Source of the DNA: an uncultured Algibacter sp.
GTDB taxonomy: Bacteria; Bacteroidota; Bacteroidia; Flavobacteriales; Flavobacteriaceae
Direction of reading: 5' to 3'
DNA: 32,175 nucleotides
Assembly: GCA_937936645.1 (NCBI GenBank)
Contig: CALHCQ010000023.1
Span: 1-32,175 of the forward strand
Shown: positions 10,397 through 32,175 of the stretch, piece by piece
Layout of the letters: each line of letters starts with the position of its first letter
How positions within the stretch are numbered: position 1 is the stretch's first letter
Position numbers and translations under genes: made by a program
Notes under the pieces: generated by a model
Databases searched by the model: none
What the model was told of the DNA's origin: nothing
Seen by the model: the letters and a program-made list of their open reading frames with translations, nothing else

Positions 10397-11811
10397 GATC
10401 ATTTAGTTACCTAATATTTATTTTAACCACGTTTTGTTTTGGGCAAAATAAGCAGTTGTTATATGGGTTTTCAAATATACCTCAGGCTTTGTTACAAAAT
10501 CCTGGTGGTAAAGTAAAAAACGATTGGTATTTTGGTATACCAGCCTTATCCCACATTCATGCTAATGTAGGAAGTTCTGGTGTGTCTGCTTTCGATTTGT
10601 TTGCAGATGATGGTGTCGATTTTAACGATAAAATAGAAACCCATATATTAAGTTTAAGCGCAAACGATTTTTTTGCGGCAAACCAGCAATTAGAGATTTT
10701 TTCTGGAGGGTTTTCCTTTGGCGATAGGTTTAATAAAAACAAATATTTATCTTTTGGTCTGTATCAAGAATCAGATTTTATAGCCTATTATCCAAAAGAT
10801 GTTGTCGATTTTCTTTACGAAGGAAATGCTAACAATATAAATAGAGAATTTTCATTAACTGATTTAAACGCTAGTGCCGAAATTATATCGGTATGGCATG
10901 TTGGATTTAATAAAAAAGTAAATGAAAATTTTAGCTACGGTATTCGAGGTAAAATTTATTCAAGTTTAGTTAATGTAAACTCAACAAATAATCGAGGCAC
11001 CATAGTTACACGAACAGGACGAGATAATTTCTTAGACCATGTAATAAATATTGATGTAGAATTAAGAACATCTGGCATTAATTCTTTTGTAGAAAACGAC
11101 AGCATACAAGGGACCGATGTTATAAAAGATTTAAGAAAACGTGTTTTATTTGGGGGTAATTTAGGTTTAGGCTTCGATATTGGTTTCACAAAAAAAATAA
11201 ATAAGCAATGGACTGTAGATGGAAGTCTTTTAGATGTAGGTTTTATAACTCATAAAAAAGATGTAGAACGTTACCGTGTTTCTGGAGTTTTTCAGTTTGA
11301 TGGAATACCAGAATCTACCATTACTAATTTTGGGCAAGGAAGAAATGCCGATGTTGTTTTTAGTGAAATAGAGGAGGAGTTAGAAGACGTGTTTGAGGTA
11401 GATACCATAAGATCTAGTTATACCACATTTCGACCTGTAAAACTAAATGCATCTATAAATTATGCTTTTGGCGAAAAGTATGAAGATTCCTGTAATTGTA
11501 CAGAAAATAAAAGTGATTACTTAAATGCTGTAGGTGTGCAATTGTATGCTATTTCTAGACCTAAGCAACCTCAATTGGCATTAACGGCTTATTACTACCG
11601 CTCACTATTTAAAGGGTTACAAGCCAAAGCTACTTATACTGTAGATTCTTTTTCTTTAACAAATATAGGACTTGGTGTATCTGCAAATCTTGGGCCTTTA
11701 AATTTTTATATTTTAGCCGATAATTTACTTGAATACCAAAACATATACGATGCAAGAAGTGCATCTTTACAATTAGGATTTAATTATATTTTTAATAAAA
11801 ATGAAAAATAA
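10393..11811 (+). CDS. Secreted/outer-membrane beta-barrel-like protein (DUF5723-like)
   Basis: Signal peptide FSYLIFILTTFCFGQ; KQLLYGFSNIPQALLQNPGGKVKNDWYFGIPALSHIHANVGSSG; alternating beta-strand pattern and C-terminal LQLGFNYIFNK. Confidence 0.75.
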   Translation: MRSFSYLIFILTTFCFGQNKQLLYGFSNIPQALLQNPGGKVKNDWYFGIPALSHIHANVGSSGVSAFDLFADDGVDFNDKIETHILSLSANDFFAANQQLEIFSGGFSFGDRFNKNKYLSFGLYQESDFIAYYPKDVVDFLYEGNANNINREFSLTDLNASAEIISVWHVGFNKKVNENFSYGIRGKIYSSLVNVNSTNNRGTIVTRTGRDNFLDHVINIDVELRTSGINSFVENDSIQGTDVIKDLRKRVLFGGNLGLGFDIGFTKKINKQWTVDGSLLDVGFITHKKDVERYRVSGVFQFDGIPESTITNFGQGRNADVVFSEIEEELEDVFEVDTIRSSYTTFRPVKLNASINYAFGEKYEDSCNCTENKSDYLNAVGVQLYAISRPKQPQLALTAYYYRSLFKGLQAKATYTVDSFSLTNIGLGVSANLGPLNFYILADNLLEYQNIYDARSASLQLGFNYIFNKNEK

Positions 11812-28484: not shown

Positions 28485-31040
28485 ATGGCGAAGAATCTAG
28501 TAATTGTTGAGTCACCTGCAAAGGCTAAAACTATCGAGAAATTTTTAGGAAAAGATTTTAAAGTAGAGTCTAGTTTTGGGCATATCTCCGATTTGCCTTC
28601 TAAAGAATTGGGTATTAATGTAGATGGTGATTTTAAACCAACTTACGAAGTATCTAAAGACAAAAAAGCGGTTGTAAAAAAACTTAAAGATTTAGCAAAA
28701 AAAGCAGAAATTGTATGGCTAGCCAGTGATGAGGATCGCGAGGGAGAAGCTATTGCATGGCACTTAGCCGAGACTTTAAAGCTAGATAAAGAAACCACAA
28801 AGCGTATTGTTTTTCACGAAATTACAAAGACGGCCATAAAAAAAGCGATAGAAAACCCTAGAGGCATAGATTACGATTTGGTAGATGCCCAACAAGCACG
28901 TCGTGTTTTAGACAGGATTGTGGGTTACGAATTGTCTCCTGTACTTTGGCGTAAGGTAAAAGGAGGGTTATCTGCAGGACGTGTACAATCGGTTTCTGTT
29001 AGATTAATTGTAGAGCGCGAACGCTCTATACAAGATTTTAAACCTGTGGCGTCTTATAGAATAGATGCCGAATTTTCTAATGAAGATGGTCAAGCCTTTA
29101 AAGCTAAATTGCCAAAAACATTTTCTTCAAAAGAAGAAGCGTATGCTTTTTTAGAAAAAAATAAAACGGCCGATTTTAAAGTTGCTGATTTACAGAAAAA
29201 ACCAGCAAAAAAATCTCCAGCAGCACCATTTACAACGTCAACTTTACAGCAAGAGGCTTCAAGGAAATTATACTTTTCTGTAAGTAAAACCATGACTATG
29301 GCACAACGTTTATACGAAGCCGGTCTTATAACTTACATGAGAACAGATAGTGTAAACCTATCTGATGAAGCAAAAAAAGGAGCTCAAGAAGAAATAGAAA
29401 ATGTTTACGGAGCAAAATACAGCCAGCCTAGAAATTATAAAGGAAAATCTAAAGGAGCACAAGAAGCTCACGAAGCTATACGTCCAACAAATTTTGCGAC
29501 ACATTCTGTAGATATAGATTACGACCAGGCGAGACTTTACGATTTAATATGGAAGCGCTCCATAGCATCGCAAATGAGTGAGGCACAATTAGAACGTACA
29601 AATGTTAAAATAAGCGCATCTACACATAAAGAAACCTTTACTGCAAATGGAGAGGTTATTACTTTTGATGGTTTTTTAAAGGTGTATTTAGAAGGTACCG
29701 ACGATGAAGATGGCGAACAACAAGAAGGTATGTTGCCAGCCATGAATACTGGAGAAACATTGCTTAATAGCTTCATTTCTGCTACAGAACGTTACACGCG
29801 TGCACCAGCACGATTTACAGAAGCATCCTTAGTAAAAAAATTAGAAGAATTAGGTATTGGACGTCCGTCTACATATGCGCCAACGATATCTACCATTCAA
29901 AATAGAAATTATGTAGAAAAAGGAGCTGTAGATGGTAAAGAACGTAGCTATACACAGTTAAAACTACAACACGGCGAGCTAACCGATACTTTATTGTCGG
30001 AAAAAGTAGGGTCCGACAAAGGAAAACTTGTACCTACAGATATTGGTATGATTGTTACAGATTTTTTAGTAAATCACTTCGAAAACATTTTAGATTATAA
30101 CTTTACAGCCAAAGTAGAGGCCGATTTCGATGAAATAGCAGAGGGGAAAGAAGATTGGATTAAAATGATGAAGACCTTCTACACAAAGTTTCATCCTCAA
30201 GTAGAAGACGTTAAAGAAAATGCCGATAGAGAGTCTGGCGAGCGTATTTTAGGTACCGACCCAGAAACAGGTAAACAAGTAAGTGTACGTTTGGGCAAAT
30301 TTGGACCCATGGTGCAAAAAGGAACTGTAGATGATGAAGAGAAACCTCAGTTTGCAAGTTTAAGCCCAGAGCAACAATTAAATACAATTACCTACGAAGA
30401 GGCTATGGATTTATTCCAGCTTCCAAAAAACCTAGGACATTTTGAAGATGAAGAAGTTGTAGTAAACAATGGTCGTTTTGGTCCCTATGTTAAATTTGGA
30501 GCTGCCTATGTTTCTTTGCCTAAAGGAACCGATCCTTTAAGTGTCGAGTTAGACGATGCTATTGTTTTAATAAAAGAAAAGCAAAAAGCAGACGCTCCAA
30601 TTTATATGTATAAAGATTTGCCCGTGCAAAAAGGTAAAGGTCGTTTTGGTCCTTATATAAAATGGAATAACATGTTTATTAACGTAAACAAAAAATATGA
30701 TTGGGATAACTTATCCGATGATGATATTGTAGAGTTAATAGAAGTTAAAATTCAAAAGGAGATAGACAAAGTTATACATAATTGGGAAGAAGATGGCATC
30801 CGTGTAGAAAAAGCACGCTGGGGTAGACACAATGTAATGCAAGGTAAAATAAAAGTTGAGTTGCCAAAAACAGTCGATGTTACAGAGATGACTTTAGACG
30901 AGGCTAAGGCTCACATTGCAACCAAAGCACCTAAAAAGAAAGCCGCCAAGAAAAAAGCGGCGCCAAAAAAAACAGCAGCTAAAAAAACGGCTACAAAGAC
31001 AAAAACAACCGTAAAGAAAACGACAACGAAAAAGAAATAA
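28485..31040 (+). CDS. topA: DNA topoisomerase I (type IA) with Lys-rich C-terminal tail
   Basis: MAKNLVIVESPAKAKTIEKFLGKDFKVESSFGHISDLP; SDEDREGEAIAWHLAE; active site LITYMRTDSVNLS; C-terminal KAPKKKAAKKKAAPKKTAAKKTATKTKTTVKKTTTKKK. Confidence 0.97.
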   Translation: MAKNLVIVESPAKAKTIEKFLGKDFKVESSFGHISDLPSKELGINVDGDFKPTYEVSKDKKAVVKKLKDLAKKAEIVWLASDEDREGEAIAWHLAETLKLDKETTKRIVFHEITKTAIKKAIENPRGIDYDLVDAQQARRVLDRIVGYELSPVLWRKVKGGLSAGRVQSVSVRLIVERERSIQDFKPVASYRIDAEFSNEDGQAFKAKLPKTFSSKEEAYAFLEKNKTADFKVADLQKKPAKKSPAAPFTTSTLQQEASRKLYFSVSKTMTMAQRLYEAGLITYMRTDSVNLSDEAKKGAQEEIENVYGAKYSQPRNYKGKSKGAQEAHEAIRPTNFATHSVDIDYDQARLYDLIWKRSIASQMSEAQLERTNVKISASTHKETFTANGEVITFDGFLKVYLEGTDDEDGEQQEGMLPAMNTGETLLNSFISATERYTRAPARFTEASLVKKLEELGIGRPSTYAPTISTIQNRNYVEKGAVDGKERSYTQLKLQHGELTDTLLSEKVGSDKGKLVPTDIGMIVTDFLVNHFENILDYNFTAKVEADFDEIAEGKEDWIKMMKTFYTKFHPQVEDVKENADRESGERILGTDPETGKQVSVRLGKFGPMVQKGTVDDEEKPQFASLSPEQQLNTITYEEAMDLFQLPKNLGHFEDEEVVVNNGRFGPYVKFGAAYVSLPKGTDPLSVELDDAIVLIKEKQKADAPIYMYKDLPVQKGKGRFGPYIKWNNMFINVNKKYDWDNLSDDDIVELIEVKIQKEIDKVIHNWEEDGIRVEKARWGRHNVMQGKIKVELPKTVDVTEMTLDEAKAHIATKAPKKKAAKKKAAPKKTAAKKTATKTKTTVKKTTTKKK

Positions 31041-31090: not shown

Positions 31091-32175
31091 ATGAGTTTAA
31101 GTTTTTTATCACCAGTACCAGATTCTGTGGTTTTGCATAACGATGTGCTATCGCAACAAGCGCTAGGCAATAAGTTTAAAATACATACAACTAAATTAGG
31201 TTTGCCAGATTTAGAAAATGTGCAAATAGCTATTGTAGGTGTTCTAGAAAACAGAAACGATGTTAATTATATAGGTCAAGATTTTAACTTAAACGAAGTG
31301 CGAGAAGCATTATATGCGCTTTTCCCTGGCAGTTGGCGCCTTAATATAGCCGATTTAGGCGATATTTATAAAGGCGAAACGGTACAGGATACTTATTTTG
31401 CCTTACAAAGTACTTTAACACTTTTAATAGAAAAGAAAATTATACCTATCATATTAGGAGGCACACAAGATCTTACTTATGCAAATTACAGGGCGTACGA
31501 TAATTTGGTTCCCATGGTAAATATTGTAAACGTAGATTGTAAATTCGATTTAGGCGATTCTACAAAAGCCATTAAAAATAATAGTTTTGTTGGTAAAATT
31601 ATTTTAGACGAGCCTTGCAATCTTTTTAGTTACGCCAATATAGGTTATCAAACTTATTTTAATTCTCAAGAAGAAATAGATTTGATGCAAAAGTTATATT
31701 TCGAAACCTATAGGTTAGGAGAAATAACCAACGATATTAAAGTTGTAGAACCGGTGCTTAGAGATGCTAATGTTGTTACTATAGACTTAAAGTCTGTTAA
31801 AGGTGCCGAAGTTAGTTTAAAGCAAAAGTTCTCGCCTAACGGTCTAGATGGCAAAGAAATATGCGCTATATCTCGTTATGCAGGTATAAGCAATAAAGTA
31901 ACATCGTTTGGTATATACGAATACAAACCCTCTACCGATAATGAAATAACATCTATGCTTATTTCGCAAATGATTTGGTACTTTATAGAGGGCGTTAATT
32001 ATAGAGTTAAAGATGATGATTTTGCAGATGAAACAGGTTATCAAAAATACATAACCCTTGTAGATTCTCAAGAATTGATTTTCTATAAAAGTATTAAAAC
32101 AGGAAGATGGTGGGTCGAATTATCTTTTTTATCAAATGTTAATAATAAATTAAAAAGACACACGTTATTACCTTG
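31091..32175 (+). CDS. Arginase/formimidoylglutamase-family protein, apparently missing canonical metal ligands (3' end outside window)
   Basis: ATG at 31091: MSLSFLSPVPDSVVLHNDVLSQQALGNKFKIHTTKLGLPDLENVQIAIVGVLENRNDV...LFPGSWRLNIADLGDIYKGETVQDTYFALQSTLTLLIEKKIIPIILGGTQDLTYANYRAYDN...; open to the right edge, absent from the ORF track. Confidence 0.8.
   Translation, partial: MSLSFLSPVPDSVVLHNDVLSQQALGNKFKIHTTKLGLPDLENVQIAIVGVLENRNDVNYIGQDFNLNEVREALYALFPGSWRLNIADLGDIYKGETVQDTYFALQSTLTLLIEKKIIPIILGGTQDLTYANYRAYDNLVPMVNIVNVDCKFDLGDSTKAIKNNSFVGKIILDEPCNLFSYANIGYQTYFNSQEEIDLMQKLYFETYRLGEITNDIKVVEPVLRDANVVTIDLKSVKGAEVSLKQKFSPNGLDGKEICAISRYAGISNKVTSFGIYEYKPSTDNEITSMLISQMIWYFIEGVNYRVKDDDFADETGYQKYITLVDSQELIFYKSIKTGRWWVELSFLSNVNNKLKRHTLLP

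Follow-up and report, generated by a model that had tools for sequence, protein, structure and literature searches.

The open reading frame at the end of the window (the whole stretch of 32,175 nucleotides analysed, from an uncultured Algibacter sp.) encodes an arginase-like protein, named ARG here. We read it as an ancient, dead derivative of HutG or arginase that would act as a cytosolic binding or scaffold protein and that, in most lineages, would be expressed with topA and not with gldKLMN; we give this reading a probability of about 0.6. Judged from its sequence, ARG would be an old and conserved non-enzyme, the loss of metal ligands being common to nearly all its relatives in the Bacteroidia. 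The nearby genes for the gliding and secretion motor seem to be under separate control and are not proven partners of ARG.

The reading frame at the contig end

ARG starts with the ATG at 31091, and its frame stays open up to where both the window and the assembly contig (C23, 32175 b) end. Complete orthologues are mostly 372-390 amino acids long, about 388, so around 27 C-terminal residues are absent from the window copy. The sequence matches Pfam PF00491 with E = 2.3e-15 and reaches 59 bits with the NCBIfam hutG profile (TIGR01227 equivalog), below the curated cut-off of 229. No signal peptide was seen in ARG on inspection of the sequence by eye. The features used below are:

28485-31040, + strand: topA (DNA topoisomerase I), upstream neighbour of ARG, at a gap of 50 b in the window and 0-15 b in most relatives
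31091-32173, + strand: ARG, putative arginase-fold pseudoenzyme, 361 codons, cut by the contig end, assigned by profile matches and alignment
31457-31471, + strand: GGTQD, first Mn ligand (His101 of rat arginase) changed to Gln126; in 75 relatives Gln 53, His 12
31532-31549, + strand: VDCKFD at the DAHxD place, Asp149 and Asp153 kept, His126 equivalent changed to Lys151; His151 in 0/73
31748-31762, + strand: E220-P221...R224, family-specific motif; E220 and R224 in 73/73, not in the intact arginase-family sequences compared
31778-31810, + strand: TIDLKSVKGAE at the SxDxDxxDP place, Asp232 kept, second Asp changed to Lys234; Asp234 in 3/73, all family f5
31862-31864, + strand: Cys258, near-invariant, its conservation paired with that of Cys362, located past the contig end
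31919-31921, + strand: Glu277, equivalent of the guanidinium-binding Glu of ureohydrolases, kept here; Glu in 49/75
31976-31978, + strand: Trp296, invariant, in the last helix of the arginase domain
32003-32173, + strand: family-specific C-terminal extension, residue 305 onward, with F331, W340 and W341; cut by the contig end

In the assembly of the window, which is 77% complete, GldL and an above-cut-off GldK were not found outside the contig end, and in the one other genome of the genus that was searched ARG, GldK and GldM were likewise not found; the ARG/gld region is thus missing from both drafts.

Loss of metal ligands across the family

The preliminary description had placed GGTQD, VDCKFD and TIDLKSVKGAE exactly where they lie, and had correctly read Gln, Lys and Lys at three Mn-ligand positions. 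Among 40 near genomes 34 have a relative of ARG, as do 188 of the 197 genomes sampled from the class. Seventy-five relatives from the class Bacteroidia were aligned at the ligand positions and two were too incomplete, leaving 73 usable. Residue 151, which corresponds to arginase His126, is never His in these sequences and is Lys or Arg in 45, while residue 234 is Asp in three, all of family f5, where the other ligands are gone. The A-site Asp trio (149, 153 and 232), by contrast, is kept in 66/73 relatives, Asn being counted as kept at 153, and the A site is complete, with His at the first-ligand position, in 12. The window copy retains the three Asp ligands and the substrate Glu277. Hence the term metal-ligand-deficient, applied earlier to this protein, holds for the B site, which is gone, and not for the A site, which is mostly kept. 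Since the loss is common to the whole family, it is not a chance event. Gln126 alone is not decisive: structure 3m1r, solved as formimidoylglutamase, reads GGDNS at the first-His motif, and this, together with the His found there in 12 relatives, means that the first His is no strict marker of activity. The diagnostic losses are those at residues 151 and 234.

No other His is conserved in the family, the top column reaching 48% among the 73 relatives, so there is no hidden relocated ligand. A still-working formimidoylglutamase or arginase that takes its ligands from other residues would account for the Pfam match and the weak hutG match, and some HutG proteins do without the first His; nevertheless, the lack of any conserved His, a residue 151 that is never His and an Asp234 confined to three sequences devoid of the other ligands make it hardly credible. 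The earlier suggestion that the protein is neither arginase nor formimidoylglutamase, and is perhaps a binding or scaffold protein, gains support from the loss of the B site, the lack of a replacement His and the strong conservation elsewhere.

Arginase-fold deacetylases use only one metal. An enzyme with a different, mononuclear chemistry at the A site (Q/H126, D149, D153, D232) would explain the Asp trio in 66/73 relatives, the full A site with His in 12 and E277 in 49/75, and some formimidoylglutamases carry Asn where the first ligand would be; the retained Asp could indeed mean that one metal is still bound and used, which counts against our main explanation. However, the ligands lost are those of the B site, common to the ureohydrolases and the deacetylases of this fold, f5 and a few other sequences lose the A site too while the rest of the family signature stays, and conservation is not centred on the active-site face. 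We consider such chemistry rather improbable.

In the three f5 sequences (L060, L194, L240) every A-site Asp is gone and E220, P221, R224, R208, Q187, C258, W296, W340 and C362 stay, which argues that the constraint acts on a new site and not on the metal site. These f5 proteins lie on a very long branch of 2.2 changes per site, and their genes are still near topA and far from gldKLMN.

Fold, descent and constraint

An AlphaFold2 model was made from a complete orthologue 77% identical to the ARG of the window (mean pLDDT 75.8, pTM 0.81, from a shallow alignment). It is predicted to have the arginase fold: agmatinase and formiminoglutamase structures match it in Foldseek with E to 1e-13 and a TM to target of about 0.6, residues 149 and 232 are at strand ends, and residue 126 is just past a strand, the places expected for ligands. 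By its predicted fold and its PF00491 match ARG belongs to the arginase superfamily, of whose ligands it has the A-site Asp but lacks the B-site His (0/73) and Asp (3/73).

In a maximum-likelihood tree the 70 family members form one clade with 100/100 support, and the other arginase-family proteins of the phylum in the tree, 13 sequences with intact or near-intact ligands, fall outside it. Groupings inside the clade broadly match the genome families, as vertical descent would give, and the family looks old. A recently duplicated pseudo-subunit of an active ureohydrolase was considered and dismissed: ARG is a separate clade, and in half of the 36 genomes with ARG no second match to the arginase superfamily was found with the family profile.

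The family evolves under purifying selection, with a median dN/dS of 0.058 among 72 close pairs. The most conserved residues, W340, W296, C258, C362, W341, R224, R208, E220, P221, Y75, G265 and F331, are family-specific. Their clustering on the ancestral active-site face was tested and is not significant, a result that also weighs against the main explanation. From this family-specific conservation, and from the f5 sequences that keep the signature without the A-site Asp, we infer that the working surface consists of the new C-terminal extension and the arginase-domain helices bearing the signature, not of the old metal site.

Gene order and the type IX secretion system

The order topA-ARG-gldKLMN, given in the preliminary description, is real. 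In 31 of 34 near Flavobacteriales loci, a few of which start or stop at contig edges, the genes run topA-ARG-(porP)-gldK-gldL-gldM-gldN, with ARG beside gldK or porP-gldK; of 80 named Flavobacteriaceae loci, 75 have it in full, and the order is seen in many more families of the class. At most 8 kb separate ARG from gldL in 85 of the 140 genomes compared (25 families). The two are apart in 21 families, contig breaks accounting for some of these. It is away from topA also in f17, f18, f19, f22, f23, f56, f78 and f86, so several families depart from the arrangement on which the main explanation draws. In f17, f56 and f76 (L181, L182, L183, L195, L196, L200), where ARG has left both topA and gldK, a NAD-dependent epimerase-family gene stands divergently beside it. 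A common partner gene for ARG away from topA was sought here and rejected, as the other unlinked families have different neighbours.

This order could reflect an accessory protein of the T9SS or gliding motor that acts in the cytosol and, for instance, binds the cytoplasmic part of GldL or aids GldLM assembly, and its deep conservation (topA-ARG-porP-gldKLMN over many families) is a point against our own explanation. Co-occurrence favours the accessory too: all 36 genomes of the phylum sample with an above-cut-off GldL carry an ARG-family match; the class sample has 186 genomes with both ARG and GldL, 2 with ARG only, 5 with GldL only and 4 with neither, and the order sample 327, 5, 7 and 58, respectively, these two sets being compared by eye from tables. 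However, the 58 double-negatives are mostly small endosymbiont genomes of one group that lost both ARG and the gld genes, so the association does not represent many independent events. Co-occurrence, strong in raw form, was therefore dismissed as evidence, being confounded by that single group and by the vertical descent of both partners.

T9SS-positive genomes without ARG occur in at least nine families (f9, f10, f12, f13, f15, f62, f72, f90, f99), so ARG does not accompany every T9SS. The gap left by ARG is visible in two loci, where topA is followed directly by gldK (L218) or by porP-gldK (L219). Genomes with ARG only are mostly explained by contig ends (G674, a draft of 690 contigs, may or may not be such a case), with one clear exception, G583, in which stops and frameshifts disrupt each of gldK, gldL, gldM and gldN, and topA and ARG are intact with a 4 b overlap (L239). 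There ARG retains 48 of 54 near-invariant residues, inside the control range, in this one genome. G583 is a small-genome relative in the Flavobacteriales whose T9SS motor operon (L239:6542-10293) is in decay. The presence/absence pattern shows that ARG is no obligatory component of the T9SS or gliding motor and that the two are separable, either occurring without the other. A link to gliding of the GldJ type was also dismissed: f17 (G041) has ARG but no full match to GldJ, and GldJ occurs without ARG in G032, G033 and G035.

Probable transcription units and sequence elements before gldK

In most named loci 0-15 b separate topA from ARG (the median in a wider set is 6 b, and the window has 50 b), which leaves no room for a promoter in most of them, and the gap between ARG and gldK is mostly 146-187 b, about 155 b. 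Within the latter, TTG-N20-TATGTTTA was found in 76 of 79 loci against 7 expected from shuffles, with the spacer and the last base relaxed, and the promoter-like block is 90% identical compared with 66% for the remainder of the gap (79 Flavobacteriaceae loci). The element resembles the sigma-A pattern of flavobacteria, TAnnTTTG (PMC9723704). It became clear only once the 79 Flavobacteriaceae loci were aligned with the last base relaxed; the strict -7 motif gave only 5 hits in the gap from ARG to the next gene of a mixed 44-locus set. A search for an RNA family near gldK found none. The gene spacing and the promoter-like element ahead of gldK suggest that gldKLMN would have its own promoter and that ARG would be expressed with topA.

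In about half of the 79 loci a direct repeat in 21 b register, CGATGAAATG-N11-CGATGAAATG, is placed 30 and 51 b upstream of this TTG element; 45/79 have two copies, against 0.2 in shuffles, and 9 looser hits occur elsewhere in 1.6 Mb. It is located in the ARG-gldK gap of L072-L151 (in L072 at about 11168-11325) and looks like a putative activator site for the T9SS/gliding motor operon.

The partial correlation of lineage rates is 0.51 (p 0.003) between ARG and topA and 0.07-0.25, not significant, between ARG and gldK-N, in a comparison of 33 related lineages in which several tests were made, a limit that counts against the main explanation. The rates agree weakly with an ARG-topA unit. They would also suit a dedicated cytosolic partner of TopA in the Bacteroidia, a protein-binding arginase fold co-expressed with TopA, whose rates track those of TopA and which adjusts or recruits it; we hold that to be of low probability. 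The T9SS or gliding role proposed earlier from gene order is weakened by the promoter-like element before gldK, the abutment of topA and ARG, the T9SS-positive lineages without ARG and the intact ARG next to broken gldKLMN in L239, and the rates of ARG have no significant correlation with those of gldK-N. A motor accessory is therefore possible but, in our judgement, unlikely.

Proposed model for ARG

We propose that a HutG- or arginase-like ancestor in early Bacteroidia lost both ligands specific to the second metal, and that its descendant is a vertically inherited, single-gene pseudoenzyme. The binuclear Mn centre would no longer be held, and so, by established chemistry, guanidino substrates would not be hydrolysed. 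Lys/Arg151 is probably at the place of the second metal, where it would neutralise the remaining Asp cluster and keep the fold stable without that metal. As the pattern of conservation suggests, function would reside on a family-specific surface, made of residues 208-224, 258-267 and 293-305 and the C-terminal extension, that may bind a partner or ligand in the cytosol. ARG would in most lineages be placed for expression with topA, not with gldKLMN.

No paper on the gene was found in a literature search that covered few subscription journals. Arginase-family pseudoenzymes are already known; what is new is this family, with its class-wide spread, its extension and its genomic position. Metabolic reconstructions are misled by database entries, in which ARG tends to be labelled as arginase or formimidoylglutamase. 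In this pseudoenzyme the functional site seems to have shifted, and its gene makes a clear test case for deciding whether conserved proximity to the T9SS motor genes marks a partner or a bystander.

Comparison with known systems

MetCb/MfmB (PDB 8x3g, 8snf, 8ryi) is the metal-free subunit of metformin hydrolase, a binding partner that has lost its ligands (PMC11271267). ARG resembles it as an arginase-family protein with metal ligands lost, with no membership implied, and MetCb gives a precedent for reading ARG as the inactive subunit of a heteromeric ureohydrolase. However, the active paralogue with which MetCb pairs is encoded next to it, and a subunit of this kind would be expected to have such a paralogue in its genome, usually adjacent; by the family profile 18 of 36 ARG-positive genomes have no other arginase-superfamily match, PF00491 matches only ARG in the draft genome of the window, and a paralogue beside ARG was not seen in the loci examined. 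A heteromer with an active paralogue is thus very improbable.

HutG (TIGR01227; PDB 3m1r, 4mxr) has the arginase fold and includes the best sequence relatives outside the ARG family, some of them without the first His. Unlike ARG, it keeps DAHxD and the SxDxD Asp pair, and it has neither the C-terminal extension nor the E-P..R, Cys and Trp signature; the score of ARG against its profile is far below the cut-off. The arginase-like protein of Trypanosoma (PDB 4rhi-4rhq), which we take to have the arginase fold without the usual metal centre, shares the fold and a weak sequence match with ARG, but it is eukaryotic and its gene neighbourhood is unrelated. Finally, gldK, gldL, gldM and gldN are frequent downstream neighbours of ARG in an ancient shared order, yet they have no sequence relation to it, are preceded by a separate promoter-like element, and can occur without ARG, as ARG can without them.
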